NCBI RefSeq assembly: GCF_022814865.1
Contig: NZ_JAKVRD010000019.1
Coordinates: 1 to 64,000, forward strand
DNA length: 64,000 nt
DNA from: Shimia aestuarii
Lineage (GTDB): Bacteria; Pseudomonadota; Alphaproteobacteria; Rhodobacterales; Rhodobacteraceae
Direction: 5' to 3'
Shown here in pieces: positions 2,456 through 57,417 of the stretch. Under the pieces are notes generated by a model. The model was not told the origin of the DNA. It was given only the letters and a program-made list of their open reading frames with translations, and ran no database searches. The translations under genes were made by a program, and so were the position numbers. Numbering within the stretch: position 1 is the first letter of the stretch; every line of letters starts with the position of its first letter.

Positions 2456-2484
2456 TTGATCTACATTCTAACATTTGTTAGATT
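2456..2484 (+). promoter_or_regulatory. Promoter with embedded 16-bp operator (site 1, divergent)
   Basis: The perfect inverted repeat TCTAACA-TT-TGTTAGA occupies 2467-2482. On the + strand it is framed by TTGATC (2456-2461) and TAGATT (2479-2484) with a 17-base spacer, a plausible sigma70-like promoter for the operon starting at 2525. On the - strand TAGAAT overlaps the same palindrome and could serve the gene starting at 2429. The same arrangement recurs at several other promoters in the window. Function is inferred. Confidence 0.7.
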
Positions 2485-2524
2485 TTTTTGGAAAGAAGAT
2501 TTTCGCTCATGGGGAGGAGCACCG

Positions 2525-3706
2525 ATGCAATTCCAGCCTACAGACGATCAGAAGGCGTTTCGCGATACCGCAAAGCGCTTCGCAACTGAAAGGCTTGCGC
2601 CCACATATCAAGAACGCGCCAGCGGCCATACATTCGACCGTGCGCTGATCAAGGAGATGGGCGCACTGGGGCTGATCGGAGCCGATCTGCCCGAGGAATT
2701 CGGGGGACTCGGCGAAAGCTCTGTCACGTCAGGGCTGATCGTCGAAGAGATCGCCTATGCCGATTTCAATGCAAGTTACGTCCAGCTTCTGGGCTCTCTC
2801 ATGGGCGGAATGGTTGCCAAACATGCCTCCAAGAACATCGCGTCGGAATGGGTGCCCAAGGTTGTTTCGGGTGATGCCGTCATTGGTCTGGGCCTGACAG
2901 AGCCGCGTGGCGGTTCGGATGCGGCGAACCTGATTCTGAGGGCCGAGAAATCCAGCAAAGGCTGGCGGCTGAACGGTGAAAAGACATCCATGAGTTTTGC
3001 CAGTCAGGCGGATGCGGCGGTCGTCTTTGCCCGTACCGGCGATCCTAACGGCGGCTCACGCGGGGTCAGCGCCTTTTTCGTCGATCTGAACCAGGAAGGC
3101 ATCAAGCGCACCCATTTTGACGACATCGGCACCAAGCCTGTCGGGCGCGGCTCGGTTTTCTTTGACGATGTTTTCGTGCCGGCTGAAAACATGATGGCGG
3201 AACAGGACCGTGCCTTTGGCACGATCATGGCGGGCTTCGACTATTCCCGCGCACTGATCGGGCTGGAGTGCCTGGGGGCCGCGCAAGCGTCGGTGGATGA
3301 AACCTGGGCCTACGTTCAGGAACGCGAGGCATTCGGGGCCCCGATCGTGCAGTATCAGGGTGTCAGTTTTCCCTTGGCCGAGGCCGAGACCCAACTGACC
3401 ATGATGCGCCAGCTTTGCTATTACACGCTGGACCTGCGCGACCGTGGCCTGCCCCACACCTCTCAGGCCGCCATGTGCAAATGGTACCTGCCCAAAACCG
3501 CCTGCGAGATCCTGCACCAGTGCCTGATCCTGCACGGACATTACGGCTACACCACCGACCTGCCCCACCACCAGCGCTACAACGATGTGCTCGGCTTGCA
3601 GATCGGTGACGGCACCGCGCAGATCCAGAAGCTGGTGATCGCCCGCGAGAAGGTCGGTCGCATGGCGCTGCAGTATGACAAGAAGGCGAAGGGAGCCTCG
3701 AAATGA
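2525..3706 (+). CDS. Acyl-CoA dehydrogenase (cyclohexanecarboxyl-CoA-dehydrogenase-like)
   Basis: A 393-residue flavin acyl-CoA dehydrogenase: N-terminal helical domain, the substrate/FAD loop GLGLTEPRGGSDAANL, the middle beta domain and the C-terminal helical domain ending in GDGTAQIQKLVIARE. It should introduce a double bond into an acyl-CoA and pass electrons to ETF. At the position where many family members carry the catalytic Glu (YEGT) it has GDGT, a variant I associate with alicyclic acyl-CoA dehydrogenases such as AliB; that link is from memory and not tested. The ATG at 2525 follows GGGGAGGAG. It is the first gene of a + strand operon and overlaps the next by 4 bp (ATGA). Confidence 0.88.
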   Translation: MQFQPTDDQKAFRDTAKRFATERLAPTYQERASGHTFDRALIKEMGALGLIGADLPEEFGGLGESSVTSGLIVEEIAYADFNASYVQLLGSLMGGMVAKHASKNIASEWVPKVVSGDAVIGLGLTEPRGGSDAANLILRAEKSSKGWRLNGEKTSMSFASQADAAVVFARTGDPNGGSRGVSAFFVDLNQEGIKRTHFDDIGTKPVGRGSVFFDDVFVPAENMMAEQDRAFGTIMAGFDYSRALIGLECLGAAQASVDETWAYVQEREAFGAPIVQYQGVSFPLAEAETQLTMMRQLCYYTLDLRDRGLPHTSQAAMCKWYLPKTACEILHQCLILHGHYGYTTDLPHHQRYNDVLGLQIGDGTAQIQKLVIAREKVGRMALQYDKKAKGASK

Positions 3707-4482
3707 GCGACCCCATCCTCGTCACTTCCGAGGGCAACACCGGCATCATCGAACTGGCCCGCCCCGAGAAATTCAATTGCCTATCACTTAAGGTGCATGA
3801 GCGTATTTCTGTCGCGCGTGCGGAATTCGAGGCGAACCCCGCTATTCGGGCGATCCTCATCCGGGCGCAGGGCAAGCACTTTTGCACCGGTGCCGATCTG
3901 GTGGAAGTGAAAGGTAAATTGAACGATCCCGCCGCGCTGGACCATTTCATCGCCTTTGGCATGAACAACCTGCGTGCACTCGAAACCTCCTCCCTCCCTG
4001 TCGTGGTGGCAGTGCAGGGGTTGTGTCTGGCCGGCGGGATCGAACTGATGCTGGCATGCGATGTGTGTTTCGCGGCCGAAAGCGCCCAGTTTGGCGATCA
4101 GCACGCGCAATTCGGGCTGATTCCCGGTTGGGGTGGCTCGCAGCGGTTGACACGGTTGATGGGGCAGCGCAGGGCGCTCGACCTGATGTTCTCGGCCCGC
4201 TGGCTCAAGTCGGACGAGGCCAAAGAGGCCGGATTGGTCAACTACATCGTGCCGGATGCGGACCTGCACAAGTCTGCGCTGGAATACTGCGAGAAAATCG
4301 CCACCCGTTCACGTCCCGGCATCGCCGAGATGAAGCGGTTGGCGCGCGAAGGCGCGGACCTTGGTATCGACCAGCAGATGCGGCTTGAGCGCGATGCCGC
4401 CGTGCGCGCACTGCCCAGCGATGACGTGGCGGAGGGCCTCGATGCATTCGAGAACCGGCGCGCCCCCGAATTCAAGGCTTGA
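3703..4482 (+). CDS. Enoyl-CoA hydratase/isomerase (crotonase family)
   Basis: A 259-residue crotonase-fold protein. The oxyanion-hole segment HFCTGADLVEVKG and the GGIELMLACDVCFA helix are clear. The first catalytic Glu of classical enoyl-CoA hydratase is present (GGIEL), while the second is replaced (FGDQHAQFGLIPG has His where the hydratase has Glu). It may therefore be a hydratase with altered mechanism, an isomerase or a lyase. The ATG overlaps the stop of the upstream dehydrogenase (ATGA), indicating translational coupling; the next gene starts 9 bp downstream. Confidence 0.85.
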   Translation: MSDPILVTSEGNTGIIELARPEKFNCLSLKVHERISVARAEFEANPAIRAILIRAQGKHFCTGADLVEVKGKLNDPAALDHFIAFGMNNLRALETSSLPVVVAVQGLCLAGGIELMLACDVCFAAESAQFGDQHAQFGLIPGWGGSQRLTRLMGQRRALDLMFSARWLKSDEAKEAGLVNYIVPDADLHKSALEYCEKIATRSRPGIAEMKRLAREGADLGIDQQMRLERDAAVRALPSDDVAEGLDAFENRRAPEFKA

Positions 4483-4491
4483 GGACGAAAC

Positions 4492-5652: not shown

Positions 5653-5679
5653 TCGCCACGGCTTGGAACGGAGAACGAC

Positions 5680-8675: not shown

Positions 8676-8685
8676 GGAGCGAACC

Positions 8686-15424: not shown

Positions 15425-15454
15425 TTGACCAAATTTTCTAACATCTGTTAGGAA
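15425..15454 (+). promoter_or_regulatory. Promoter with embedded operator (site 2)
   Basis: TCTAACA-TC-TGTTAGG lies at 15437-15452 (13 of 14 half-site bases match the consensus). TTGACC (15425-15430) and TAGGAA (15449-15454) are 18 bases apart, so the palindrome fills the spacer and overlaps the -10 box exactly as at site 1. It would control the leader ORF and the first ABC-transporter operon. Confidence 0.65.
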
Positions 15455-22482: not shown

Positions 22483-23271
22483 ATGAGTAACCTGCTTTCC
22501 ATCAAAGGTCGTACCGCATTTGTAACCGGAGCGGGGCAAGGCGTTGGTCGGCAAGCCGCGCTTTATCTGGCGGAACACGGAGCCGGTGCCATCGTTGTCA
22601 ACGATTTTCACGCCGAACGGGCCGAAAGCGTTGCCGCGGAAGTGGAGGCAGCGGGTGCAAAGGCTCTGCCGCTCGCCTTCGACGTCTCGGATTTCGACGC
22701 GGTTGGCGCGGCGTTTGCCGAAACGCAGACCACATTTGGCGGCGTGGATATTCTGGTCAACAATGCGGGCAACGCCGGGCCGACATCGCGGCTCGACGAT
22801 CTGGTCCCTTTTTGGGAATCCGATCCCGACGAATGGCGCCGCTGGATGGCCACCAATTTCGATGGGGTGCTGAACTGCACCCGTCACGCCATGCCGTTGA
22901 TGGTTAACAGTGGCTATGGGCGCATTGTGACCGTCATTTCCGACGCCGGCCGTGTCGGTGAACCGCATCTGGCGGTTTATTCCGGGGCCAAGGCCGGTGC
23001 GGCCGGCTTCATGCGGGCAATTGCAAAGGCCGGCGGCCGGTTCGGGATCACCGCGAATTGCGTCGCCTTGGGGGGCACAAGAACTCCGGCTGTCGCCGAC
23101 CTGATCCCGGATGCAGAGACCGAGAAGCGGGCATTGTCGCAGTACGTGATCCGCCGTCTGGGCGAGCCGGAAGACCCCGCCGGAATGATCCTGTTCCTCT
23201 GCTCGGATGCTGCCAGCTGGATCACCGGTCAAACCTATCCGGTGAATGGCGGGTATTCTTTTGCCTGCTAG
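22483..23271 (+). CDS. Short-chain dehydrogenase/reductase (SDR)
   Basis: A 262-residue classical SDR: GAGQGVGRQA cofactor loop, NNAGNAGP, catalytic Ser in VISDAG and YSGAKAG, and a C-terminal ASWITGQTYPVNGGYSF segment. It is probably an NAD(P)-dependent 3-hydroxyacyl-CoA or alcohol dehydrogenase of the pathway; the substrate cannot be told. Twelve bp separate it from the LivF-type gene, so it closes the transporter operon. Confidence 0.83.
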   Translation: MSNLLSIKGRTAFVTGAGQGVGRQAALYLAEHGAGAIVVNDFHAERAESVAAEVEAAGAKALPLAFDVSDFDAVGAAFAETQTTFGGVDILVNNAGNAGPTSRLDDLVPFWESDPDEWRRWMATNFDGVLNCTRHAMPLMVNSGYGRIVTVISDAGRVGEPHLAVYSGAKAGAAGFMRAIAKAGGRFGITANCVALGGTRTPAVADLIPDAETEKRALSQYVIRRLGEPEDPAGMILFLCSDAASWITGQTYPVNGGYSFAC

Positions 23272-23296
23272 AGCCGCCATCGGACGGCTGCCGCCT

Positions 23297-24400
23297 CTAG
23301 TTGGAGCTGTCCGAAAAAACGCTGTCATTATCTGCCCCGAGCTCGGGGGGCAGATCCGGTATCGCGGTTTCGAAACCATCGAATTTCAACGGCTGGACAA
23401 TAAAAGTCTCGGCCTTGCCGCCGTCATGCGTAATCTTGCGCAGCAGCTGGCGCGCACGCACATGGGGGTCGTCCAACGTTTCGACCAGGGAATTGACCGG
23501 ACCCCATGGCACCCCCGCCTTATCCAGAAGGTCGCCCCATTCGGCGCGCGTCTTGTTGACCAAAATCGCCGCGATTTCTTCGCGCAGCGCGGCCTTGCCG
23601 GCGACACGGTCGCGGCCTGTCAACGGCGCAAGATCCGCCCTGTTGATCACATCGCAGAACGGTTTCCAGAACCAGTCCTCATGCGCGATGGACAAGGTCA
23701 AGAGCTTGCCGTCTTTGCAGGTGAACACGCCATAGCCCGGCTCGGCGATAAATTCGCCCAGCGGTGTTCCATTGGCGGCGGGAACGAGGAATGCGGTCAA
23801 CATCGAAACCACCGCATCCGACATGGACACGTCCACGTAACGCCCCTGCCCTGTGCGCTGGCTCGACACCACCGCCGACAGGATTGCGATCGCCGCGAAC
23901 AACGCCGCGCCAACATCCGCAAGGGGGATCGGCGGCACAGGGCCGGGCTGCTTTGCATCGGCCTGATCGGCCAGCAAACCGCCAACCCCTTCATAGCTCA
24001 GGTCATGGCCAGCCCTGTCACGATAGGGGCCGTCCTGCCCGTAACCCGAAATCGATACATAAACCAGCCGCGAGTTGACACGACGCATGTCCTCGAAACC
24101 GGCACCCAAGGCCGCAAGCTTGCCAGGGCGGAACCCTTCGACGATGACATCCGATTCCTTGGCCAGTTCGCGAAACCGTGCCAGCCCCTCGGCCGATTTC
24201 AGATCCAACGCAACGCTGCGCTTGCCTCGGTTCAGTGCCCGGAACAAGGGCGGAAATTGCCGGGCCGGATCGCCGACACCCGGTCGTTCGATCATGATCA
24301 CCTCGGCTCCCATGTCGGACAACAGCATTGTGGCATAGGGACCGGGAAACTGTTCGGCAAGGCTGAGAATTTTCAGGCCGGCCAGGGGTGTAGTGCTCAT
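23297..24400 (-). CDS. Class III (CaiB/BaiF) acyl-CoA transferase
   Basis: A 367-residue family III CoA-transferase (or alpha-methylacyl-CoA racemase relative). The N-terminal ILSLAEQFPGPYATMLLSD, the Asp-containing NRGKRSVALDLKS loop and GYGQDGPYRDRAGHDLSYEG are typical; the catalytic Asp of the family lies in the GHDLSYEG region. It would move CoA between carboxylic acids, or invert a 2-methyl branch. The ATG at 24398-24400 has GGAG upstream; longer in-frame starts (TTG at 24472) lack support. Convergent with the SDR gene and divergent from the hydratase gene. Confidence 0.83.
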   Translation of the reverse strand: MSTTPLAGLKILSLAEQFPGPYATMLLSDMGAEVIMIERPGVGDPARQFPPLFRALNRGKRSVALDLKSAEGLARFRELAKESDVIVEGFRPGKLAALGAGFEDMRRVNSRLVYVSISGYGQDGPYRDRAGHDLSYEGVGGLLADQADAKQPGPVPPIPLADVGAALFAAIAILSAVVSSQRTGQGRYVDVSMSDAVVSMLTAFLVPAANGTPLGEFIAEPGYGVFTCKDGKLLTLSIAHEDWFWKPFCDVINRADLAPLTGRDRVAGKAALREEIAAILVNKTRAEWGDLLDKAGVPWGPVNSLVETLDDPHVRARQLLRKITHDGGKAETFIVQPLKFDGFETAIPDLPPELGADNDSVFSDSSN

Positions 24401-24513
24401 ATCAATCTCCAGCTCTTTTGTTTTCCACGTGCGGGTCCGCCCGAGTGCAGCGCAAATCGCCGCAAAAGACAAGGCGAAAAACCAATAATATGTATAATTA
24501 TCAGGAGCTTAGC
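24401..24513. promoter_or_regulatory. Divergent intergenic region without the island operator
   Basis: This 113-bp gap separates the CoA-transferase (-) from the hydratase operon (+). It contains an AT-rich stretch ATAATATGTATAATTAT that could hold a -10 box for the + operon, but I see no TCTAACA/TGTTAGA half-site. This pair of units may therefore be outside the regulon seen elsewhere in the window. Confidence 0.4.
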
Positions 24514-25302
24514 ATGAGTGAAGCAAAGCAGACGCTATTCGTTGAGCGGGTCGAAAAAACTGAATGGATTACCTTCCAGCGCACCGAACAGCTCAACGCA
24601 ATGTCAACGCAGATGCTGCGCGAGATGGCGGCAGCACTGGAATCGGCGCTGGCCGACGATGGGGTGCGTACAATTGTCCTGACCGGCTCTGGCCGGGCAT
24701 TCTGCGCCGGTGCCGATCTGAAAGAAGTTGCTGGCGCCAAACATGCACCAGGCGAGCCGGATCTTCTGGATCTTGTCGATCACACGTTTGGGCTGATGCG
24801 ACATGGCCCGAAACCGGTGATCGCCGCAGTGAACGGGCTGGCGATGGCGGGCGGTTTGGAAATGGTGATGGCCTGCGATCTGGTCTTTGCCGCCGAAAGC
24901 GCGCAACTGGGCGACGCACATTCCAACTTTGGCGTCTTTCCCGGGGCCGGCGGTGCGGCGATCCTGCCGCGTAGGATTGGCCTGAACCGCGCGAAATACC
25001 TGCTGTTCTCGGGCGAGAACGTTTCGGCACGGGACATGATGGACTGGGGACTGGTGAACAAGGTCGTCGCGGACGAAGACCTGCGACAAGCGGTGCAGGT
25101 CTTTACCGACAGGCTGGCAGAAAAAAGCCCGGCGGTCTTACGCCGCATGAAGACGGTTGCCAATCGGTCGCTGGACGTGGACGAAACCGCCGCGCTTTCC
25201 GAAGAGATGCTGAACCTGCGCGCGCACATGCGATCCTGGGACATGCACGAGGGTCTGTCGGCGTTCAATGAAAAACGAAAACCGCAGTTTCGCGGATACT
25301 AG
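24514..25302 (+). CDS. Enoyl-CoA hydratase/isomerase (crotonase family)
   Basis: A 262-residue crotonase. GRAFCAGADLKEVAG forms the oxyanion hole and AGGLEMVMACDLVFAAESAQ contains the first catalytic Glu; the second Glu position reads GDAHSNFG (His), as in the protein at 3703. A hydratase, isomerase or lyase role is possible. The ATG at 24514 is chosen because CAGGAG lies 8 bases upstream; an earlier in-frame ATG at 24490 lacks one. First gene of a + strand operon with the thiolase and an acyl-CoA dehydrogenase. Confidence 0.83.
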   Translation: MSEAKQTLFVERVEKTEWITFQRTEQLNAMSTQMLREMAAALESALADDGVRTIVLTGSGRAFCAGADLKEVAGAKHAPGEPDLLDLVDHTFGLMRHGPKPVIAAVNGLAMAGGLEMVMACDLVFAAESAQLGDAHSNFGVFPGAGGAAILPRRIGLNRAKYLLFSGENVSARDMMDWGLVNKVVADEDLRQAVQVFTDRLAEKSPAVLRRMKTVANRSLDVDETAALSEEMLNLRAHMRSWDMHEGLSAFNEKRKPQFRGY

Positions 25303-29562: not shown

Positions 29563-30759
29563 TCAGCGGTCTTTTTGGTTGACGATCAGTTCTGCATTTT
29601 CGGGTAGTTCCGAAACAATGTTCACCTCGTCAGCACGAATTCGTGCATGCAGTTTGAAGGTATCAGCGGCGGCTGCTTCTGCGGCGGAAGCGTCGGCACC
29701 GTCTTCCAGCACAAGCGAGAGGCGGATCATGTCGCGATCGTTCTCGCGCGTTACCACGGCCTGCGCGGCCTTTGCGCCCGGCGTGCCGATGACAACTTCT
29801 TCAACCACGCGCGGATAAACGAAAATCTCGCGCACTTTGACCGCTGCCCCGACCCGTCCCTGCAATGCTGAAATCCGGCTGACGGTGCCATCCGCGTTGC
29901 TTTCCAGGGCAAAGGCGCTGTCGCCGGTGCCGAACCGGATCATCGGCCAGGTGGCATCGCGCGCGGTCACGACAACCTCGCCAGGTTCGCCATGAGCGAC
30001 CTGTTCGCCGCTGACCGGATCGCAGATCTGCACCACGCGGTCGGGATGAACCAGGTAGCCTTCGCCGCCATCCTCATAGGCGACAAGGCCCAGATCGGCG
30101 GTGGCATAGGCGGCCCAGGTGGACACGCCGTATTCGGCCTCGATCCGGCGGCGCTTGGCCATCCAGTCGCCCATCTCACCGCCGAGGAAGGCTGTCTTCA
30201 CCTTCCATGCGTCGCGGCCATAGGTTTCGATCACCTTGTCCGCCAGCGTCAGGAAAAACGCAGTCGAAGCGCAGATCGAAGTCACGCCGGTTTCGGCGAT
30301 GATCTGTGCCTGAAGCTCCGTATTGCCGACGCCTCCGGGGATCACCGTGGCGCCTGCGGCCTGTGCCGCTTCGTCGAACAAAAGCCCCGCGGGCACCAGA
30401 TGATACATCCAGGTGTTCAGGATGATATCCCCCGGCCCCACGCCTGCCGCCTTGAACAGCCGGTCAAGGCCGTGGCCGCCACCGTCCGAAAGGGCCGGTT
30501 CGAAAATCGGGCCGGGGGACACGTAGATCCGCCCGACATCCTTCAGATCCGAGGCCAGGAACCCGCCAAAGGGCGGGTTCTCGCGCTGGATCTTCAGAAG
30601 CTCTTCTTTTTTCATCACTGGAAGACGCGAGAGGTCCGCCACCGATGTGACAGCTGCCGGATCGAATCCGGCAGCCGTAAATCGCGATTTCAGGCCAGGA
30701 GCTTTTTCGGCCGCAGCCGCATAGGCTTGAGCTATATCTTTGTAGATATCATCAGACAT
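29563..30759 (-). CDS. Phenylacetate-CoA-ligase-family protein (second copy, divergent)
   Basis: A 398-residue PaaK-family protein, shorter than the copy at 5680. The family fold is visible in LSRLPVMKKEELLKIQ, the YATADLGLVAY segment and the WPMIRFGTGDSAFAL hinge. The phosphate loop is not the usual SSGTTG: the matching region reads RIYVSPGPIFEPALSDGGG. It may therefore be a ligase of a subfamily with an altered ATP loop, or have another function. I chose the ATG at 30757-30759, 7 bases after GAGGAGG; the ATG 6 bases earlier is too close to that site. Last gene of the operon that starts at 35049. Confidence 0.75.
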   Translation of the reverse strand: MSDDIYKDIAQAYAAAAEKAPGLKSRFTAAGFDPAAVTSVADLSRLPVMKKEELLKIQRENPPFGGFLASDLKDVGRIYVSPGPIFEPALSDGGGHGLDRLFKAAGVGPGDIILNTWMYHLVPAGLLFDEAAQAAGATVIPGGVGNTELQAQIIAETGVTSICASTAFFLTLADKVIETYGRDAWKVKTAFLGGEMGDWMAKRRRIEAEYGVSTWAAYATADLGLVAYEDGGEGYLVHPDRVVQICDPVSGEQVAHGEPGEVVVTARDATWPMIRFGTGDSAFALESNADGTVSRISALQGRVGAAVKVREIFVYPRVVEEVVIGTPGAKAAQAVVTRENDRDMIRLSLVLEDGADASAAEAAAADTFKLHARIRADEVNIVSELPENAELIVNQKDR

Positions 30760-30786
30760 TTCCATGCCTCCTCGTCCAATCGGGCG

Positions 30787-31596
30787 TTAAAGCGGGCAGT
30801 CCTTACGGAAGTTCGGCGCGCGCTTCTCGCGGTGCGACAACACACCTTCCTTGACGTCCTCGCTCATGAAGCCAAGCATCTCCAGCGCGGTCGACGCATC
30901 AAAGATCGGCCCGGCCTGGCGCAGCCAGTTGTTCAGCGAATACTTGGTCCAGCGAATCGCGCTTTGCGAGCCGTTGGCCAGTTCGACGGCTGTATCCAGC
31001 GCGATCTGCTGCAGCTCGTCATCCTCGACGCACATTGATACCAGACCGATACGCTCGGCCTCTTCGCCCGACACCGGCTTGCAGGTCATCAGATAGTATT
31101 TCGCCTTGGCCATCGAGGTCAGCAGCGGCCAGATAATCGCCGCGACGTCACCGGCGGCAACACCAAGGCGGGGATGACCATCGACAATCTTGGCCTTCTT
31201 TCCGGCGATCGAGATGTCGGCCAGGATGGCAACCACAAGGCCTGCGCCGGCCGCAGGGCCATTGATCGCGGAAATGATCGGCTTGTTGCAGTTGATGATG
31301 TTATAGACGAGATCCTTGGCTTCTTTCCACGTCTTCATGATCTCGTGCGAATTGCCAATCATGTTTTCGATCAGGCTGAAATCACCCCCGGCGGAAAATG
31401 CCTTGCCCGCACCGGTCACGATGACCGAATTGATGTCTGGGTCACGGTCGATATCGATCCACATGTCCGTCATCTGAGTGTGGGTTTCGGCATCGACCGA
31501 GTTGAATGTCTCGGGCCGGTCGAACGTGATGCGCAGGACGCGATCCGCCGGGTAGTCAAATTTCAGTTTATCGTATTTTGCATAACGATCCGACAT
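30787..31596 (-). CDS. Enoyl-CoA hydratase/isomerase (crotonase family)
   Basis: A 269-residue crotonase with GKAFSAGGDFSLIENM (oxyanion hole) and NGPAAGAGLVVAILADISI. Neither classical catalytic Glu is obvious: the first site reads GAGLV and the second DGHPRLGVAAGD. It is probably not a plain enoyl-CoA hydratase; isomerase or lyase activity is possible. GGAGGAAATAGAACC precedes the ATG at 31594-31596. It lies between the paired dehydrogenase genes and the PaaK-like gene in one operon. Confidence 0.82.
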   Translation of the reverse strand: MSDRYAKYDKLKFDYPADRVLRITFDRPETFNSVDAETHTQMTDMWIDIDRDPDINSVIVTGAGKAFSAGGDFSLIENMIGNSHEIMKTWKEAKDLVYNIINCNKPIISAINGPAAGAGLVVAILADISIAGKKAKIVDGHPRLGVAAGDVAAIIWPLLTSMAKAKYYLMTCKPVSGEEAERIGLVSMCVEDDELQQIALDTAVELANGSQSAIRWTKYSLNNWLRQAGPIFDASTALEMLGFMSEDVKEGVLSHREKRAPNFRKDCPL

Positions 31597-31624
31597 GGTT
31601 CTATTTCCTCCGTGGGGTATTGAG

Positions 31625-32776
31625 TCAGCCAGGCAGTCCCAGGACGGCCTTGGACAGGATGTTTCTTTGGATTTCGTTCGATCCACCGTAGATCGTGGTA
31701 GGTCTGGCCTTGTAGAAACTCGCCAGAACATCGACACTTACGTTGCCGACCTGAAGCGGCCCGATGGAGCCGCCATCGGGACCGGCTGCTTCGATCATCA
31801 GCTCGGTGATGCGCTGGAAGCATTCAGTCACCCAAATCTTCAGCATGGACACATCCGCACCGAGCGTCTCGCCACGTTTGAGCTGATCTGCAAAACGGGC
31901 ATAAAGCGCGGCATGATCTTCCACATCCAGTGCCGCCTGGGCAAAGCGGTCACGGAACACCGGATCGTCAAACGCGCCACGGCCACGGGCAAAGCTTTCA
32001 AGCTGTCCCAGAGCGTTCTGGGCCAGACTTGGCGAACCGATGAAAATGCGTTCGAAGCTCAAGAGAGCCTTGGCCATCGTCCAACCCTTGTTCAGCTCGC
32101 CCACGAGGTTCTCGCGGGGCGTCCGTGCATTGTCAAAGAAGACCTCGCAAAACTCGGTCTCGCCCGACAGGGTCGTGATGGTGCGCACCTCGACTCCGGG
32201 TTGATCCATCGGAGCGAGCAGGAAACTGATGCCCTGCTGTTTCTTCGGCGCATCGGGATCGGTGCGCACCAGCATGAAAATATGCGTGGCGTCATGCGCC
32301 ATCGTGGTCCAGATCTTCTGTCCGTTGATGACAAAGTCGTCGCCGTCAATCTCTGCGCGTGTGCGCAGGTTCGCCAGATCGGACCCGGCGCCGGGTTCCG
32401 AATAGCCCTGACACCAGATATCTTCGCAACTCAGGATACGCGGCAGCCAGTAATCTTTTTGTTCCTGGGTGCCGAATTTGATGATCAGCGGCCCGACCAT
32501 CTGCACGCCCATGTCGCGGCCGCGATTGACGCCCCAGCGCTGCTGCTCTTCGTAAAAGATCAGCAACTTGGCGGCGTTCAGCCCCATACCGCCGAATTCA
32601 GCGGGCCAGGCTGGCGCGACCCAGCCCTTGGCGTGAAGCTTGCGGTGCCAATGTTCGATCTCGGCGAACTTCGGTCGGTGCGGCAGGTGACGCAGCTCCT
32701 CGGGATATTCCGCCTCGAAGAACTGGCGCACTTCTTTGCGGAACTCTGCATCGGTCATAGCGTTCCAGTCGGTCAT
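31625..32776 (-). CDS. Acyl-CoA dehydrogenase, probable subunit of a heteromeric enzyme (partner A)
   Basis: A 383-residue acyl-CoA dehydrogenase: WCQGYSEPGAGSDLANLRT, GQKIWTTMAHDATH, and a C-terminal YGGSNEIQRNILSKAVLG. Its gene overlaps the following, distinct dehydrogenase gene by 4 bp (start at 32776, upstream stop at 32773). Adjacent unequal dehydrogenase genes of this kind encode alpha2-beta2 enzymes in steroid side-chain degradation (ChsE1-ChsE2 type), and the same is likely here. It has the better conserved FAD motifs of the pair. Confidence 0.85.
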   Translation of the reverse strand: MTDWNAMTDAEFRKEVRQFFEAEYPEELRHLPHRPKFAEIEHWHRKLHAKGWVAPAWPAEFGGMGLNAAKLLIFYEEQQRWGVNRGRDMGVQMVGPLIIKFGTQEQKDYWLPRILSCEDIWCQGYSEPGAGSDLANLRTRAEIDGDDFVINGQKIWTTMAHDATHIFMLVRTDPDAPKKQQGISFLLAPMDQPGVEVRTITTLSGETEFCEVFFDNARTPRENLVGELNKGWTMAKALLSFERIFIGSPSLAQNALGQLESFARGRGAFDDPVFRDRFAQAALDVEDHAALYARFADQLKRGETLGADVSMLKIWVTECFQRITELMIEAAGPDGGSIGPLQVGNVSVDVLASFYKARPTTIYGGSNEIQRNILSKAVLGLPG

Positions 32777-33897
32777 TGTGCTGCCCCCTCTGCTTCGCGT
32801 GCCTCGAACCATATCCGCCTGTGATAGGCATCGTCGCCCAACCAGGCCGACAGCACCAGCGCCCGGTTCAGGTAGAGCCCGATATCGAACTCATCCGTGT
32901 ACCCGACGGCCCCGTGCAGCTGGATGGCGTCGCGGGTGATTTTCTTGGCGGCGGTGACCGCGCGAGCCTTGGCCCGGCTGGCAAGCCGCGCCCGGACTTT
33001 TGGATCGGTTTCGCTGTCCATCTGCGCAAGCGCCTCCCGCACTCCGGCCTGCGCGACCTCGCACATCACGTTGAGGTCGACGGCACGGTGCTGGATGACC
33101 TGGAATGATCCGATCGGCTTGTCGAACTGCTCCCGCGTCTTGATGTAGTCGAGCGTGATCTCGAAGGCGCGCTCGCTCAGGCCGACAAGCTCGGCCGCGG
33201 CAAGCGCCGTTGCATCGGCGACAGCCTCGGCCAGTGCAGTGAGAACCGCACCGCTGCTGGCCAATTCCGCAGCCGGAGTTCCCGAAAACGAAAGCTCGCC
33301 CAGAGAGCTGCCATCGGCCTGCGTCCGCTTGTCGATGACAAGCCCCTGCGCGTCTGCCTCAGCCAGAACCAGAACCGGACCATCATCCTGTTCGGCCACG
33401 ACAAGGAACCCGTGCGAACCGATCGCACCGACGACCCAGGCCTTGCTACCGGTCAGCTTTCCGTCCGCGTATCGGCAGGTCGCATCGGCAGGCGCCCCGT
33501 CGGGGCCGCGTTCCTGCCAGGCAACCGCCAATGAAATTTCGCCGCCGATGAGCTGTGCCATCTTCGGATGATCCGGACAAAGGCGGCGCAGAAGGCCGAG
33601 GCTCAGACCGATCGTCGACACGACCGGTTCCGGGGCAATCACACGGCCGACTTCCTCGGCGATGACACCCCCGGCGGCTAGGCCCATGCCAAGCCCGCCC
33701 TGATCTTCGGGCACCGCCACGCCGAAAACACCGGCCTCGGCCAGTTCCCGGACCATCTCCGGATCGAAACCGCCCCCGGCATCACGGAGTTGTCGGGCTC
33801 TGTCACTTCCGCCCGCCCGTTCAAACAACGTGCGCACGCTCTCGCGCAACAGGCGAAGGTCTTCTTGTTCGCTGGAAAGGATATCAGTTTGTGTCAT
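32773..33897 (-). CDS. Acyl-CoA dehydrogenase, probable subunit of a heteromeric enzyme (partner B)
   Basis: A 374-residue, more divergent acyl-CoA dehydrogenase. The C-terminal half is clear (TREQFDKPIGSFQVIQHR, IQLHGAVGYTDEFDIG), whereas the central FAD loop is weakly conserved (the usual TEPxxGSD is replaced by AWQERGPDG). That asymmetry is expected for a heteromeric enzyme in which the two subunits share FAD binding and catalysis. Start and stop overlap its neighbours on both sides (14 bp with the hot-dog gene, 4 bp with partner A). Confidence 0.83.
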   Translation of the reverse strand: MTQTDILSSEQEDLRLLRESVRTLFERAGGSDRARQLRDAGGGFDPEMVRELAEAGVFGVAVPEDQGGLGMGLAAGGVIAEEVGRVIAPEPVVSTIGLSLGLLRRLCPDHPKMAQLIGGEISLAVAWQERGPDGAPADATCRYADGKLTGSKAWVVGAIGSHGFLVVAEQDDGPVLVLAEADAQGLVIDKRTQADGSSLGELSFSGTPAAELASSGAVLTALAEAVADATALAAAELVGLSERAFEITLDYIKTREQFDKPIGSFQVIQHRAVDLNVMCEVAQAGVREALAQMDSETDPKVRARLASRAKARAVTAAKKITRDAIQLHGAVGYTDEFDIGLYLNRALVLSAWLGDDAYHRRIWFEAREAEGAAQ

Positions 33898-34333
33898 TTT
33901 GTTTTCGCTGGATCATCACGGGGGTGTCGGTCGAAAAAACGACCTCGCCCTCGGGGTTTCTGGCGCTGAGCGTATAGTGCAAAACACCTCTGTCGGGCTT
34001 GCTTTTTGACGGTGTGACCGAGTTGACCGTCAGTTCGACATCAAGGGGTTCGTTCGGGTGCACAGGCCGCAGCCAGCGCAAATTATCAAAGCCCATGCCG
34101 CCGATATTGGCAACATCGACCATCATCTCGGTCATGACCGGCTTGAACACCTCAAGCATGGTCTGAAAGCCCGAGGCGATCAGGCTGCCATGTATGGCGG
34201 TTGCATAGTCTTCATCGGTGTGCAGCCGCTGCGGATCCCATTCCTTGGCAAAGGCCTTTATTGAATCCGCGCTCATCGGAGCGCTGCGAAAGCGATAGAC
34301 TTGGCCCGGCGAGAAGTCTTCCAGATACCTCAA
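33884..34333 (-). CDS. MaoC-type single hot-dog hydratase
   Basis: A 149-residue hot-dog protein with WDPQRLHTD, the Asp33/His38 pair of R-specific enoyl-CoA hydratases, then ATAIHGSLIASGFQTM. It should hydrate or dehydrate an acyl-CoA thioester, probably the product of the paired dehydrogenases encoded next. In steroid side-chain catabolism the equivalent hydratase is a heterodimer with a DUF35-carrying partner; a separate DUF35 protein is encoded at 38296. It overlaps both neighbours, so the operon is tightly coupled. Confidence 0.83.
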   Translation of the reverse strand: MRYLEDFSPGQVYRFRSAPMSADSIKAFAKEWDPQRLHTDEDYATAIHGSLIASGFQTMLEVFKPVMTEMMVDVANIGGMGFDNLRWLRPVHPNEPLDVELTVNSVTPSKSKPDRGVLHYTLSARNPEGEVVFSTDTPVMIQRKQNDTN

Positions 34334-35049
34334 GAGGCACCCTCCTTTGCGAAACCGTCATCGTATCCGCTCGCATCCTTGGATATCCGGATGCGGTTGA
34401 ATTCTTCCAGCTTCGGATAGGTTTGCTTGAACGCCACCAGGAACTCACCCATCGGCGCGTCGAAATAGAGACCACGGTCGTTCACATATTCCATGTGCCG
34501 GTGATTCTGTTGGTCGAACTCGTGAAAGAGCGCGTCGTTATAGCCGTCGAAGACCAGGGGTTTGACCCCGAATCTTTCACACAGTTCCATGTTGAATGCA
34601 GGTGTCACTTTGTAGGCCTCATTCCCCAACCACAGCTGAACATAGCCGTGGTAGATAAAGAGATCGGTCCCCATCAACTCCTGCAACTTGGGTGTATTCA
34701 GGTGGTTGCGCACATCCGCGAACCCCAGAGCGGCGGGGATACCCACAGCACGCAAACAAGCCGCCAGAAGAATTGCCTTGGGAACGCAAAACGCCGCTTC
34801 CGCCCCAGCGATACGGCTGGCACGGTAAGAGTCCTCATCCAGCGCAAAACAATAGGGATCATAGCGAATATCGTCGCGCACCGCTTCGAACAGGCGGATC
34901 GCCTTGTCTCGATTGGTTGCGTCCACAGGAAGATCACGCAAAGCCGATGTCACGAAACCCTGCACTTCCAAGCTATCGCTTTCCACAAAGCGCGATGGCA
35001 TGACATAACGCTCAGCTTCAGTCGGCAGGTCATTGTCAGACTTGTTCAT
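34330..35049 (-). CDS. Transglutaminase-fold (papain-like) protein of unknown function
   Basis: A 239-residue protein with the transglutaminase-like core: FCVPKAILLAACLRAVGIPA has Cys88 in the usual place, YHGYVQLWLGNEAYKVTPAFN has His134; the third residue, often Asp, reads Thr. The C-terminal part (HRHMEYVNDRGLYFDAP) fits a bacterial subfamily of unknown activity. It is the first gene of a beta-oxidation operon and its stop overlaps the hydratase start (ATGA), so it is surely made with those enzymes. It could hydrolyse an amide or thioester, for example a conjugated acid, but this is speculation. Confidence 0.72.
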   Translation of the reverse strand: MNKSDNDLPTEAERYVMPSRFVESDSLEVQGFVTSALRDLPVDATNRDKAIRLFEAVRDDIRYDPYCFALDEDSYRASRIAGAEAAFCVPKAILLAACLRAVGIPAALGFADVRNHLNTPKLQELMGTDLFIYHGYVQLWLGNEAYKVTPAFNMELCERFGVKPLVFDGYNDALFHEFDQQNHRHMEYVNDRGLYFDAPMGEFLVAFKQTYPKLEEFNRIRISKDASGYDDGFAKEGAS

Positions 35050-35064: not shown

Positions 35065-35080
35065 TCTAACAATTGTTAGA
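35065..35080 (-). promoter_or_regulatory. Operator (site 3), perfect 16-bp palindrome
   Basis: TCTAACAATTGTTAGA is a perfect palindrome 15 bp before the start at 35049. On the - strand TTGAAT lies 12 bases before it and TAGAAA begins at its 13th base, giving an 18-base spacer, the same arrangement as the other sites. It should control the six-gene operon 35049 to 29563. Confidence 0.7.
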
Positions 35081-35112
35081 TTACCGATTCAAAACCTGCC
35101 CGTCAACGGGAT

Positions 35113-38714: not shown

Positions 38715-38743
38715 TTGATAATCTTTCTAACAATTGTTAGATT
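38715..38743 (+). promoter_or_regulatory. Divergent promoter with operator (site 4), perfect palindrome
   Basis: TCTAACAATTGTTAGA at 38726-38741 is identical to site 3. On the + strand TTGATA (38715-38720) and TAGATT (38738-38743), 17 bases apart, form a promoter for the CoA-transferase gene at 38778. On the - strand TTGACT lies 9 bases before the palindrome, a less well spaced candidate for the DUF35/aldolase operon. One bound repressor could silence both directions. Confidence 0.7.
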
Positions 38744-42336: not shown

Positions 42337-42352
42337 TCTAACAAGAGTTTTT
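42337..42352 (-). promoter_or_regulatory. Partial operator (site 5, one half-site conserved)
   Basis: Read on the - strand the sequence is AAAAACT-CT-TGTTAGA: the right half-site is perfect, the left one degraded. TAGATT overlaps the right half at the same offset as in the other promoters and ATTGTC/TTGTCG lies 16-17 bases upstream. It is placed 38 bp before the dehydrogenase gene starting at 42299. Repressor binding would be weaker, if it occurs. Confidence 0.4.
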
Positions 42353-42452
42353 TTCTCGACAATGAACCCGAGCCGTTCTGACGGAGCGTCACACGGCTTC
42401 GGACCGTGCGCATCCGGATTTTTCCAATCAACGCGCCGCCCATTCGGCTCGT

Positions 42453-42488
42453 ACAAAAAGGCCCGACAAAACAGGCGGGCCTTTTTGT
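42453..42488 (-). terminator. Rho-independent terminator of the ETF operon
   Basis: A 13-bp perfect stem (ACAAAAAGGCCCG and CGGGCCTTTTTGT) with a 10-base loop lies 17 bp after the etfA stop. The A run on one side and the T run on the other allow termination in both directions; for the - strand ETF operon the U tract is in the right place. Confidence 0.85.
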
Positions 42489-42504
42489 AATTTTTGCAAT
42501 GGAC

Positions 42505-43431
42505 TTACAGCTTGTCGGTCAATTCAGGCACAGCTTCGAACAGGTCGGCGACCAGACCGTAATCGGCCACCTGGAAGATCGGCGCCTCTTCGTCCTTGTT
42601 GATGGCGACGATGATCTTGGAATCCTTCATGCCGGCCAGGTGCTGGATCGCACCCGAAATGCCAACGGCGATGTAGAGATCAGGGGCGACCACCTTGCCA
42701 GTCTGTCCCACCTGCCAGTCGTTCGGGGCAAAGCCCGAGTCGACGGCGGCGCGCGACGCACCAACGGCGGCGCCCAGCTTGTCGGCCAGCTTCTCGATCA
42801 GCGCGAAATCGTCTTCCGAGCCCACGCCACGGCCACCCGACACGACCACGCCGGCCGAGGTCAGCTCGGGACGGTCGCTTTCGGCGACCTTGTCTTCGAC
42901 CCATTCCGACAGGCCCGAAGCGGATGCGCCGCCCACGGTTTCCACAGTGGCCGAGCCTCCGGTGCCGGCCGCGTCGAAGCTGGCGGCGCGGAAGGACACG
43001 ACCTTTTTCGCGTCGCCCGATTTCACCGTCTGGATCGCGTTACCTGCATAGATCGGGCGCTCGAACGTGTCGGCATCGACCACGCCCGAGACGTCGGTCA
43101 GCATCATCACGTCCAGCAGCGCGGCCACGCGGGGCAGCACGTTCTTGGCGTCGGTGGTGGCGGGCGCCACGATGTGATCGTAATCGCCTGCCAGCGACAC
43201 GATCAGGTCGGCGGTCGATTCCGCCAGGCGATGACCCAGCGCGGGGTCTTCGGCGACCAGCACCTTGGCCACGCCGTCGATTGTCGCGGCTTCTTTCGCG
43301 GCGTCGGCGGCGGATGCGCCGGCGCACAGAACCGTCACGTCGCCCAGGGCCTTGGACGCGGTGACCGCCTTTGCGGTCGCGTCCATCGACAGTTCACCAT
43401 TGTTGACTTCGGCAAGAAGAAGAACAGCCAT
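42505..43431 (-). CDS. etfA: Electron transfer flavoprotein, alpha subunit
   Basis: A 308-residue ETF alpha chain. The C-terminal FAD domain is unmistakable: [79 protein letters not shown]. It takes electrons from acyl-CoA dehydrogenases and passes them to ETF:quinone oxidoreductase. Its ATG overlaps the etfB stop (TGATG), so both are translated together. Eight acyl-CoA dehydrogenase genes in the island make a dedicated ETF copy sensible, although it may be the only ETF of the cell. Confidence 0.95.
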
Positions 43432-44189
43432 CACACCGCTCCCTTTTCCTTGAGTTTCGCAACCAGCTCGTCGACCGAGCCAACCATTTCACCGGCGGCG
43501 CGTTCGGCCGGCTCGGACGTCTTGACCACGGTCAGGCGCGGGGTGACGTCGACGCCGTAATCGGCGGCGGTCTTTTCATCCAGCGGCTTTTTCTTGGCCT
43601 TCATGATGTTGGGCAGCGACGCATAGCGCGGTTCGTTCAGGCGCAGGTCGACGGAAACGACGGTCGGCATCTTGACCTTGATGGTCTGCAGGCCGCCATC
43701 GACCTCGCGGGTGACGACGGCGCTGTCGCCATCGATGCCCACTTCCGAGGCAAAGGTCGCCTGGCTCCAACCGAGGATCGCCGACAGCATCTGGCCGGTG
43801 GCATTCATGTCGTTGTCGATCGCCTGCTTGCCGCAGAGAACCAGACCGGGCTGTTCCTCTTCCACGACCTTGGCAAGGATCTTGGCCACTGCCAGCGGCT
43901 CGATATCCTGGTGCACGTCATCCGCTGCGACGACCAGGATGGCGCGGTCGGCGCCCATGGCCAGTGCGGTGCGCAGGGTTTCCTGCGCCTGTTTGACGCC
44001 GATGGATACCGCGACGACCTCTTCGGCTTTTCCCGCCTCTTTCAGGCGGATCGCCTCTTCAACGGCGATTTCGTCGAACGGGTTCATCGACATCTTAACG
44101 TTGGCGAGATCGACACCGCTGCCATCCGCCTTGACGCGGACCTTCACGTTGTAGTCGATCACGCGTTTCACAGGCACGAGTACCTTCAT
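43431..44189 (-). CDS. etfB: Electron transfer flavoprotein, beta subunit
   Basis: A 252-residue ETF beta chain with the start [38 protein letters not shown] and the AMP-binding/recognition-loop region [19 protein letters not shown]. These match ETF beta over its full length. It forms the heterodimer with the alpha chain and holds the structural AMP. The gene follows the crotonase gene at 44232-45014 by 42 bp on the - strand. Confidence 0.95.
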
Positions 44190-50395: not shown

Positions 50396-50398
50396 GCC

Positions 50399-53206: not shown

Positions 53207-54005
53207 GCGACCCTCCGATATATGCCTCGATGACCCGCGGGTCCTTCACAACCTCCTTGGGGATGCCACTGGCGATCATTTCACCGTAATTCAGGGCCAG
53301 CATCCGATCACAAATGCCGGTGATGACATCCATATGGTGTTCGATCAGCAGAACGCTGACGCCGCGTTCGGCACGGGCATCCAGAATGAAACGGGACATA
53401 TACCCTTTCTCTTCCTGGTTCATGCCAGCCATCGGTTCATCGAGAATCAGCATCTGTGGCTCGGCCACCAATGCCCGCGCCAGCTCGACCCGCTTTTTCA
53501 ACCCGATCGGAAGACCATCGACCAACTCATGCCGGATGCTCTCGAGTTGTAGAAACTCGATCACCTCCTCGACGATTTTACGGTTCTCGATTTCTTCACG
53601 CTGTGCTGCCCACCAATATAGCGCCGTGCGCAAAACGCCTGGGCTCATGTGGATGTGCCGCCCGAGCAGGATGTTGTCCAGAACACTCATCCCGTTGAAC
53701 AGGGCAAGATTTTGGAACGTCCTGGCAACCCCAAGCTTGGCAACCTTGTGAGGCGCTGTGCCCGTGATGTCTTTTCCTGCCAGCCGGACTTTGCCCTCGT
53801 TTGGCGGATAAAATCCGGTAACTGCGTTTGTTAGCGTTGTCTTGCCGCTGCCATTCGGACCGACAAGTCCAAAGATTTCCCCTTGTCGAATAACGAGGTC
53901 AACACCGGTGACAGCGACGATGCCGCCGAACCGTCGTTCAACCCCGCTGCACTCCAGTATCGCCCCATCATCGGCTCCGATTGCTGTTTTAATCTTTGTC
54001 GTCAT
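53199..54005 (-). CDS. ABC transporter ATP-binding protein, LivG type (module 2)
   Basis: A 268-residue ABC ATPase: Walker A GPNGSGKT, Walker B MLILDEPMAGMN, switch His in IEHHMD. The signature motif is again non-standard (LPIGLKKRVELARAL), close to that of the module 1 protein (LGYGLRKRVDLGRAL) and unlike the LSYGQQRR of ordinary LivG. It is transcribed with the ligase, permeases and binding proteins downstream. Confidence 0.87.
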   Translation of the reverse strand: MTTKIKTAIGADDGAILECSGVERRFGGIVAVTGVDLVIRQGEIFGLVGPNGSGKTTLTNAVTGFYPPNEGKVRLAGKDITGTAPHKVAKLGVARTFQNLALFNGMSVLDNILLGRHIHMSPGVLRTALYWWAAQREEIENRKIVEEVIEFLQLESIRHELVDGLPIGLKKRVELARALVAEPQMLILDEPMAGMNQEEKGYMSRFILDARAERGVSVLLIEHHMDVITGICDRMLALNYGEMIASGIPKEVVKDPRVIEAYIGGSHD

Positions 54006-54042
54006 CTAGATATCATTGTCCCCCTAAGGTTCACGGCCAACA

Positions 54043-54897: not shown

Positions 54898-54936
54898 GAC
54901 GCCTCCTCCCATTCCCCACTAGGGGTATCTGCCATT

Positions 54937-54965
54937 AATCTAACGTATGTTAGAAAACTGGTCAA
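54937..54965 (-). promoter_or_regulatory. Promoter with embedded operator (site 6)
   Basis: On the - strand TCTAACA-TA-CGTTAGA (54939-54954) differs from the consensus at one base. TTGACC (54960-54965) and TAGATT (54937-54942) are 17 bases apart and the palindrome lies between and across the -10 box, exactly as at sites 1 and 4. It would drive the SDR gene and the second transporter operon. Confidence 0.7.
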
Positions 54966-55002
54966 GTCACCTTTTCCCACCAGCCCCGCCTGTCATCTCC
55001 GA

Positions 55003-56169
55003 TCAGTAAGACTTTGGAAGCCCAAGGGCTTTTTCTGCTATGAACGACAAAAGCATCTGCGGTGTCACCGGTACGATGCGGAAAAGCAGAGCCTCCCGCA
55101 CTAACCGCTCCACGTGATATTCCTTGGCATATCCGAATCCGCCAAATGTAATTTGTGCGGCTTCGGTCGCCTCAACCGCGGCGTCGGCGGCCAAAAGTTT
55201 GGCGGCGTTCGCTTCGACGCCGCAGGGCTCTCCCGCATCGTAAAGGGTGGCGGCGTGCATCACCATGAGATTGGCAGATTCCACTCGCGCCCAGGCTTTG
55301 GCGAGTGGATGCTGAACACCCTGATTTTGGCCGATCGGGCGGTCAAAAATCACACGTTCGTTTGCATAATGTGCCGCTCGCGCCAGTGCGTTGCGCGCAA
55401 TACCGATGCATTCACCGGCCACCAGGATGCGTTCGGGATTCAACCCGTGCAAAATTTGCCTAAAGCCTTTGCCCTCCTCCCCGATCAGGTCCTCAGCCGG
55501 AATCGGCAATCCATCGATGAAGACTTCGTTCGAATCGACAGCCTTTCGACCCATCTTTTCGATCTCTCGCACGTCAACGAAATTTCGGTCGAGATCTGTA
55601 TAGAACAGGCTCAGCCCTTCGGTCGGGCTGCTCACATCCTCAAGCCGCGTTGTTCTGGCCAGAAGCAACATCTTGTCTGCCACCTGCGCGGTAGAAATCC
55701 AGACTTTTTGTCCGTGCACGACATATCTGTCCCCCCGCCGCACCGCCATGGTCTTCAGCTTTGTGGTATCCAGCCCCGTCGTCGGTTCGGTCACGGCGAA
55801 ACAGGCCTTTTCATCGCCTGCTATTAGAGGGCCAAGCATACGCGCGCGCTGCTCATCGGTCCCAAACTTCACCACCGGGTTGAGCCCGAAAATGTTCATG
55901 TGGATGGCCGAGGCTCCGCTTGCGCCGGCCCCCGACTCGGCGATTGCCTGCATCATTATGGTCGCCTCGGTGATCCCCAGACCCGCGCCGCCGACAGCTT
56001 CTGGCATGGCGATACCTAGCCAGCCGCCATCGGCCATTGCCCTGTGCAGTTCATGGGGAAAACCACCGTTGCGATCCCGATCCAGCCAGTAGTCGTCGTC
56101 GAACCTTGCGCAAATCCGCAGAACCTGGTCGCGAATCTCTTGTTGGTCGGCGGTCAATCGAAATGTCAT
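55003..56169 (-). CDS. Acyl-CoA dehydrogenase
   Basis: A 388-residue acyl-CoA dehydrogenase with CFAVTEPTTGLDTTKLKT, GQKVWISTAQVADK, QITFGGFGYAKEYHVERLVRE and the end LGLPKSY. The FAD loop and tail place it with the proteins at 13381 and 4492. Its start overlaps the stop of the CoA-transferase gene upstream (ATGA), so the two form one operon and probably act in sequence: CoA activation, then oxidation. Confidence 0.88.
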   Translation of the reverse strand: MTFRLTADQQEIRDQVLRICARFDDDYWLDRDRNGGFPHELHRAMADGGWLGIAMPEAVGGAGLGITEATIMMQAIAESGAGASGASAIHMNIFGLNPVVKFGTDEQRARMLGPLIAGDEKACFAVTEPTTGLDTTKLKTMAVRRGDRYVVHGQKVWISTAQVADKMLLLARTTRLEDVSSPTEGLSLFYTDLDRNFVDVREIEKMGRKAVDSNEVFIDGLPIPAEDLIGEEGKGFRQILHGLNPERILVAGECIGIARNALARAAHYANERVIFDRPIGQNQGVQHPLAKAWARVESANLMVMHAATLYDAGEPCGVEANAAKLLAADAAVEATEAAQITFGGFGYAKEYHVERLVREALLFRIVPVTPQMLLSFIAEKALGLPKSY

Positions 56170-57377
56170 AGCGCGCGCCCTCTTTCCAATCTTACGAGCC
56201 CAGCCTCACATAGGGCAGCGATCCGCTCATCGTCAAAACCAAGATCACGCAGAATGCTTTGGCTGTCTGCGCCAGGCGGTCGTCCCAGCCAACGAAGCTG
56301 ACCGGGCGTCGCGCTGAGATGAGGGACCGGACCAATGACCTGAGTCTGTTCGCCAGCGACCGACACGATATCCCCGCGATGGCGTATCTGCTCGTTCGTC
56401 GCGATTTCCTCGACACTCAACACACGCGAGGCAACGGCATCATGGCGGGCGAATACCGCCTCCACTTCCTTAGCCGTGTGCTGCATGACAAAATCATTGA
56501 TCGCATCGAAGACCACAGCCATGTGCTGCGACATCTCGCCGAGTGTCGCAAACCGCGGATCATCGGCAAGGGCGTCCCCGCCGACTGCCCGCAACAGTCG
56601 TTGCGCGGTTTCCGCGCTCCCTGCTGAAACGGTCAGCCACACCCCATCGGACGTTCGGAACATCCCCCCCGGAGCAAAGTCCATCGGCTGGCGAAGCCCA
56701 TTGCGCCGCGGCGAGAGGTTCGCGCCCGTCAATGCGGGAACCGGATAATCCATTAACCGAAGCAGGGCCTCGAACACTGCAAGATCGACGACCTGACCGC
56801 GTGCTATCCCCTTTTCGCGAGCAAATAGCGCGATCATGATTCCCAAAGCGCCCACTAGCCCTGTCGTGCTGTCGGCCGCCGGAAAGCCGGGGTGCATCGG
56901 CGGCCCTTCGGGAAAACCGGTCAGATGTGCCAAACCACTCATGGCCTCTGCAGCACGTCCAAACGCTGGCACGTCGCGCATCGGACCGTCCTGTCCGTAA
57001 CCTGAAACCCGCAAAACAACCAAGTCCGGGTTCCAATCGTGCAAGACGTCTGGTCCAACACCAGCACGTTCTAGCACACCCGGACGGAAATTTTCGATCA
57101 GCACGTCGGCATCTTCGACCAACTTTCGCAGGATGTCCCGGCCCTCGTCGGACTTCCAGTCCAGGCCTAGTGTTTTCTTGTTACGGCCCAAAGTCTTCCA
57201 CCAGACGCCCACCCCATCCTCTGCCTTGGGTCCAAGGTCGCGCATCATATCCGTCCGGTTGGGGGCTTCGATCTTGATGACATCTGCACCAAAATCCGAG
57301 AGTAAAGCTGCCGCAAGTGGTCCGGCAATTACGTGACCAAGTTCTATAATCTTCAGTTGATCAAGGGGTCCAGACAT
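56166..57377 (-). CDS. Class III (CaiB/BaiF) acyl-CoA transferase
   Basis: A 403-residue family III CoA-transferase: IIELGHVIAGPLAAALLSDFG, GRNKKTLGLDWKS, GYGQDGPMRDVPAFGRAAEAM. In the segment where many family members carry the catalytic Asp, this one reads AFGRAAEAM, which may mean an altered mechanism or that I have misaligned it. The ATG at 57375-57377 was chosen because the family N-terminus begins there; the longer frame adds 23 residues without similarity. Leader region holds the degraded operator site 7. Confidence 0.8.
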   Translation of the reverse strand: MSGPLDQLKIIELGHVIAGPLAAALLSDFGADVIKIEAPNRTDMMRDLGPKAEDGVGVWWKTLGRNKKTLGLDWKSDEGRDILRKLVEDADVLIENFRPGVLERAGVGPDVLHDWNPDLVVLRVSGYGQDGPMRDVPAFGRAAEAMSGLAHLTGFPEGPPMHPGFPAADSTTGLVGALGIMIALFAREKGIARGQVVDLAVFEALLRLMDYPVPALTGANLSPRRNGLRQPMDFAPGGMFRTSDGVWLTVSAGSAETAQRLLRAVGGDALADDPRFATLGEMSQHMAVVFDAINDFVMQHTAKEVEAVFARHDAVASRVLSVEEIATNEQIRHRGDIVSVAGEQTQVIGPVPHLSATPGQLRWLGRPPGADSQSILRDLGFDDERIAALCEAGLVRLERGRAL

Positions 57378-57401
57378 CTGCACTTTCGACTTTGCTAATT
57401 T

Positions 57402-57417
57402 TCTAATGGTTGTTCGA
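57402..57417 (-). promoter_or_regulatory. Degraded operator (site 7)
   Basis: On the - strand TCGAACA-AC-CATTAGA matches the island consensus at 11 of 14 half-site positions. TAGAAA overlaps the right half at the usual offset and TTTGCT/TTGCTA lies 16-17 bases upstream. It is 25 bp before the CoA-transferase start at 57377. Position and geometry support it more than the sequence alone. Confidence 0.4.

Follow-up and report, generated by a model that had tools for sequence, protein, structure and literature searches.

A recurrent palindrome and a double-TetR gene in a catabolic island of Shimia aestuarii

We analyzed a stretch of 64,000 nucleotides of Shimia aestuarii (contig NZ_JAKVRD010000019.1, C19 below; the whole stretch is called the window), in which palindromes of consensus TCTAACA-N2-TGTTAGA stand before the operons of a catabolic island. 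From the evidence below we infer that the palindrome is very probably the operator of one repressor composed of two fused TetR units, which would bind there and silence the island operons and its own gene until a coenzyme A (CoA) thioester releases it. In the proposed mechanism, the predicted fold of one double-TetR chain is an internal pseudo-dimer like that of Mce3R, in which each TCTAACA half-site would be contacted by one of the two near-identical recognition helices. The bound repressor would cover either the -35/-10 spacer together with the -10 box, or the -10 box together with the start region, and RNA polymerase would be excluded. The carboxylase, beta-oxidation, CoA-transferase and transporter operons, as well as the gene of the repressor itself, would then be kept silent until the CoA thioester of the island's substrate released the protein. 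If this is true, a travelling catabolic gene set carries its own switch.

The palindrome and the double-TetR gene

In the window, TCTAACANNTGTTAGA was matched with at most three mismatches at 7 places against 0.54 expected, and none of 100 shuffles reached 7. An earlier reading of the window, made from the sequence only, had named five palindromes and two degraded copies. All five were recovered with at most one mismatch (Table 1), and the two degraded copies are present as well, the weaker one at 42337 with the letters TCTAACAAGAGTTTTT. The copy at 57402 is identical in genome G002; G006 has a perfect palindrome at about this position, immediately beyond where the alignment ends. The match at 63707 (3 mismatches) lies beyond the end of the G002 alignment, is not conserved in G002 and was rejected as a site; it is probably due to chance.

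The same reading had held that a random frequency over the genome would refute an operator. The whole assembly (G000; 3.97 Mb in 70 contigs) was scanned and the frequency is not random: each of the 8 places that have no more than one mismatch is inside the island, 5 of them on C19 and 3 on C14 (74740, 81941 and 88375). Its claim that the motif occurs only before operons of the island stands for the strong sites, except that the island is larger than the window and has these three further strong sites to the left. Two places with 2 mismatches, C9:59735 and C13:3817, are probably chance matches. When three mismatches are allowed, 43 places are found compared with 120 for a backwards control, and therefore the weak matches alone mean little.

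No regulator gene had been seen in the window, and for TetR our search agrees: the whole genome has 23 TetR_N matches, all of them outside C19. The best match (C14:88117-88257) and another one (87466-87606) belong to the same open reading frame (ORF). This gene (G000:C14:86968-88365, leftward, about 466 residues) has two TetR_N and two TetR_C_24 stretches, and PF00440 (TetR_N) scores 127.9 bits over its two stretches against a cut-off of 24, which places it in the TetR family. The chain holds two TetR units with halves 42% identical; the recognition helix is AGS[IV]YYHF in both, and the motifs SAN[IV]R and NWT.[ET]W are kept in both with little change. A perfect palindrome at C14:88375 is located 9 bases before the first ATG. 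The TetR-family gene with the same palindrome upstream that the sequence-only reading had proposed to look for is thus found on the neighbouring contig, and the palindrome precedes both the gene and its presumed targets, as with a TetR that has self and target sites. The true start is uncertain: in five plasmid records it is annotated at residue 1 in two, at residue 13 in two and further in in one, and residue 13 is methionine in 19 of the 22 aligned rows that reach it. The label in these five plasmids is only 'TetR' or 'TetR/AcrR family'.

The gene lies to the left of the window, and about 9.2 kb of island sequence and an apparent insertion element stand between them. In G002, the last matching base of C14 meets the first of C19 on a single contig with a 3-base overlap. 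The facing ends, 127 bases each (window:1-127 and L017:15607-15733), have no match on this collinear contig; they differ from each other and have a 24-base inverted repeat in common. Because the unmatched, differing ends share this repeat and the junction shows the 3-base overlap, an insertion element probably lies between C14 and C19 in the window's genome and splits the assembly.

One regulator of TetR type, as had been suggested, is supported by the palindrome before the gene and by the site counts, which are 7-9 or 0-2 according to whether the gene is present. Within the genus (25 genomes), the double TetR is present in three members, which hold 8, 7 and 7 sites with at most one mismatch, and the other 22 hold one site (4 genomes) or none (18); the protein search covered 23 of the 24 other members (all except G040). 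In G002 all seven sites are on the same contig as the gene. The order sample comprised 244 genomes, with the double TetR called at E up to 1e-100 and at most 6 candidates scored per genome. Nine of them have the gene and hold 8, 9, 8, 8, 8, 9, 8, 9 and 7 sites, compared with one or two sites in 24 and none in 211 of the remaining 235. With up to two mismatches allowed, five whole plasmids that carry the gene give 4 to 11 sites, against 2, 0, 0, 0 and 1 for the control. Whole genomes are noisy at two mismatches, because the genomes of L145 and L162 give 11 and 10 sites and their controls 20 and 29; all 11 sites of the L145 genome are on two contigs. G021 has its single site in a piece of this island (98% to C19), and the single-site genomes G017 and G020 (L077 and L079) were viewed by flank only.

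Relatives of the double TetR, the best 80 of 157 from one scan of genome contigs, come from many Rhodobacteraceae-type genera and also from Hoeflea, Labrenzia, Mesorhizobium, Bradyrhizobium and one Marinobacter. For 78 of these best 80, a site with at most two mismatches is found within 160 bases before the match, while 59 of 2000 random 220-base windows of the same loci, which can include true sites, contain one; L144 is among the 80 and comes without upstream sequence. The gene is carried by 39 plasmids, 13 of them typed conjugative, and 33 plasmids match at least 80% of a 16-kb piece of the window.

Promoter architecture

The -35 and -10 hexamers proposed for these promoters were found where they had been placed. 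For the 12 island sites (7 in the window and 5 on C14), the best matches to TTGACA with a spacer of 16-18 sum to 50, compared with 35.1 (standard deviation 2.8) for shuffled flanks, and 0 of 5000 shuffles reach the observed value. It had also been claimed that the operator occupies a fixed place in its promoters. Conservation bears this out for 2467, 15437, 38726 and 54939 (row counts in Table 1) and contradicts it for 35065 and for C14:74740, outside the window. The TTGAAT taken as the -35 of 35065 is not conserved, and the hexamers listed for this site in Table 1 are kept instead. Mis-paired rows were excluded from the counts (L217 under 15437, L230 under 38726 and L225 under 54939).

From the sequences, two promoter geometries are supported. 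In geometry A, represented by 2467+, 15437+, 38726+, 54939- and, by sequence, C14:81941, the -35 TTGA starts at -10 to -12 from the palindrome and the putative -10 box (TAGAnn or TAGGnn) overlaps the right half-site. In geometry B, represented by 35065- (13 of 13 rows) and C14:74740-, the -35 is at -26 or -29 and the -10 would lie at the left edge of the palindrome, and therefore the operator would cover the start region. At C14:74740-, 12 of 14 aligned rows keep TGTCAA, which is the -35 as seen on the opposite strand. When 39 non-redundant relative sites were examined (78 readings), the starts of TTGA peaked at -11 (16), -10 (11) and -26 (9). The pair C14:74740/74822 was compared over 16 loci: the spacing is 82 bases in 10, 77-78 in 3 and 46 in 1, the last being perhaps another promoter, and no pair is present in 2, one of which (W02) is uninformative. 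Since the spacing varies, we do not take the pair as one cooperative unit but rather as back-to-back promoters.

The palindromes might also be an inherited promoter sequence that was spread by duplication of promoter segments and is not bound at all, and some neighbouring bases (TTGAT..., TAGATT) are indeed common to several sites. However, the palindrome is kept while its flanks differ, the 39 non-redundant sites being less than 70% identical over 116 bases, and both the occurrence of two geometries and the strict co-occurrence of the sites with one regulator gene disfavour duplication. We consider this explanation highly improbable.

Table 1. Putative operators and promoter elements in the window.
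Feature	Position	Strand	Context	Conservation
Putative operator, perfect palindrome	2467..2482		before acyl-CoA dehydrogenase/carboxylase operon (+), beside divergent OYE-type reductase (-)	kept in G002, G006 and 3 plasmids
Putative operator, 1 mismatch	15437..15452		before ABC-transporter operon	
Putative operator, perfect palindrome	35065..35080		before leftward genes 35049 to 29563	
Putative operator, perfect palindrome	38726..38741		between divergent genes: 38673 leftward, 38778 rightward	
Putative operator, 1 mismatch	54939..54954		before leftward genes 54912 to 43431	
Putative operator, degraded	42337..42352		before acyl-CoA dehydrogenase 42299-41142	3-mismatch counterparts in G002 and G006, inside aligned stretch
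Putative operator, degraded, 3 mismatches	57402..57417		start of CoA-transferase gene (ORF 56166-57446, leftward)	
-35 TTGATC	2456..2461	+	17-base spacer	TTGAT at -11 in 6/6 rows
-10 TAGATT	2479..2484	+	overlaps right half-site	
-35 TTGACC	15425..15430	+	18-base spacer	TTGA at -12 in 4/5 true rows, at -16 in one
-35 TTGACG	35101..35106	-	instead of TTGAAT	TTGAC at -26 in 13/13 rows
Probable -10 TAATCT	35078..35083	-	overlaps palindrome edge	TA[AT]TCT in 13/13 rows
-35 TTGATA	38715..38720	+	17-base spacer	TTGA in 11/12 true rows, TTGC in one
-35 TTGACC	54960..54965	-	17-base spacer	TTGA[CT] at -11 or -10 in 6/6 true rows

A second TetR and the nature of the inducer

Several observations weigh against one double TetR acting at all of these sites. 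In several rows of the fold comparison, one TetR chain is aligned over both model halves, which leaves it uncertain how the bundle helices pair in the predicted fold. At the promoters, one or both readings place TTGA at -12 to -10 for 18 of the 39 non-redundant sites, and neither reading does for 21, and site 88375, read toward the double-TetR gene, has no good -35 (2 of 6 positions match). In the upstream search of 80 loci, L155 has the double-TetR gene and no site near its start. In G007, a TetR-like ORF recognized by eye (L075:318-926) is one ORF from a near-identical palindrome, TCTAACAATCGTTAGA at 1501-1516; its recognition helix differs and it is unrelated to the double TetR, and therefore the shape of the palindrome alone does not name its protein. 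Finally, the island has a single TetR (C14:71840-72466, L016:9837-10466, outside the window) with the same recognition helix, AGSIYYHF, which by its sequence could share the sites.

This single TetR might repress all sites as an ordinary homodimer, with the double TetR as a side player. It has the helix and lies in the same island, and each of the 9 genomes that hold the double TetR also has a match to it (E up to 1e-40), although the one in G251 is only 54% identical. Of 10 loci whose helix is AGS[IL]YYHF, 9 (all but L189) have a palindrome with the same core, CCTAAC-N4-GTTAG[TGA], before the single-TetR gene; the two loci whose helix is TPSLYYHF do not. On the other hand, the exact variant CCTAACNNNNGTTAGT occurs 6 times in the 244 genomes, each time just before the single-TetR gene, and it is the consensus palindrome, not the variant, that precedes the double TetR. 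Also, G107, G141 and G213 have a 49-55% relative of the single TetR, no double TetR and 0 sites at up to one mismatch, though the helix differs in two of them. The single TetR is thus an unlikely repressor of all sites.

It is quite possible, if short of probable, that both proteins recognize the core TAAC-N4-GTTA and either share the sites or compete for them, the double TetR being tuned to the TCTAACA ends and the single one to its own promoter. This would fit three helix-turn-helix (HTH) units with near-identical recognition helices and two kinds of operator, which differ at their ends and precede one TetR gene each; however, the end difference may reflect no more than a weak double-TetR site. 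Such sharing is compatible with repression of the island operons by the double TetR, which is our preferred explanation.

For the double TetR, the ligand would be a CoA thioester, with two pockets. What makes an acyl-CoA inducer plausible is only the kinship of the ligand domain and the set of genes under control. Acyl-CoA-responsive regulators, to which KstR2 and PfmR belong, occur with the TetR_C_24 domain and among the nearest folds. In a wider view, to which we give close to an even chance, a proteobacterial double-TetR line would go back to the duplication of a single TetR, separately from Mce3R, and would have retained two alike HTHs, with one chain per perfect palindrome. It would be plasmid-borne with about a dozen operators as a self-contained, self-regulated catabolic regulon, beside a sister repressor of one unit whose site is a private variant of the core.

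Island genes and comparison with known systems

The island genes include AtuA, biotin carboxylases, a 3-hydroxy-3-methylglutaryl-CoA lyase-like gene, a thiolase with a ChsH2-like partner and CoA transferases, which suggest branched or alicyclic acyl-CoA chemistry. In window:35113-38673 and 29563-35049 we find the thiolase-like protein and its ChsH2-like partner, MaoC hydratases and paired acyl-CoA dehydrogenases, a set reminiscent of aldol cleavage of steroid side chains. ORFs at window:29563-30765, 42406-43560 and 23246-24517 gave no Pfam match at E 0.001, and some may be wrong frames. Beyond the last operator, a transposase-domain ORF and an AcrB-type ORF (window:59558-62736) likely mark the island edge. 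The analysis provides a likely regulator, operator and regulon for a large island found on many marine plasmids and chromosomes, and with the sites of the repressor defined, its inducer opens a way to the substrate of the island.

No paper on this proteobacterial double TetR or its operator was found among the listed matches from the open-licence literature, which is weak evidence of absence. AtuR of P. aeruginosa sits at acyclic-terpene genes, with 13-base inverted repeats before atuA, and the single TetR of the island is likewise near an AtuA gene. AtuR is a TetR repressor (named in PMC3511530). PsrA, the fatty-acid TetR of Pseudomonas, has the operator GAAACN4GTTTC in P. aeruginosa and TTCAAACN4GTTTGAA at rpoS of P. 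putida, with the form C/GAAAC N2-4 GTTTG/C (PMC13104628). PsrA is alike in the AAC-N4-GTT spacing, in the fatty-acid link and in repressing its own promoter, as the double TetR would do. Unlike the latter, it is a homodimer of single units with half-site AAAC instead of TAAC and with other genes, and the island is not assigned to a PsrA regulon. KstR2, a single-unit TetR of cholesterol catabolism, has the operator AnCAAGnnCTTGnT in three promoter regions (PMC3068626); since the half-site here is TCTAACA and not AnCAAGnnCTTGnT, the island is not assigned to a KstR2 regulon either.

The closest comparison is with Mce3R of Mycobacterium tuberculosis, a double TetR that represses genes including those of cholesterol metabolism and uses two non-identical HTHs on a 25-base non-palindromic site (PMC11667970). 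Both proteins have two TetR units per chain, and the fold predicted here matches the whole Mce3R chain (structure 9b7y). The protein is nevertheless not Mce3R itself, because it has two alike recognition helices and a palindromic operator. By sequence, each half matches other solved TetR chains better than Mce3R. The two systems thus form a contrast for the choice between palindromic and non-palindromic DNA, with two alike HTHs here and two unlike HTHs in Mce3R.
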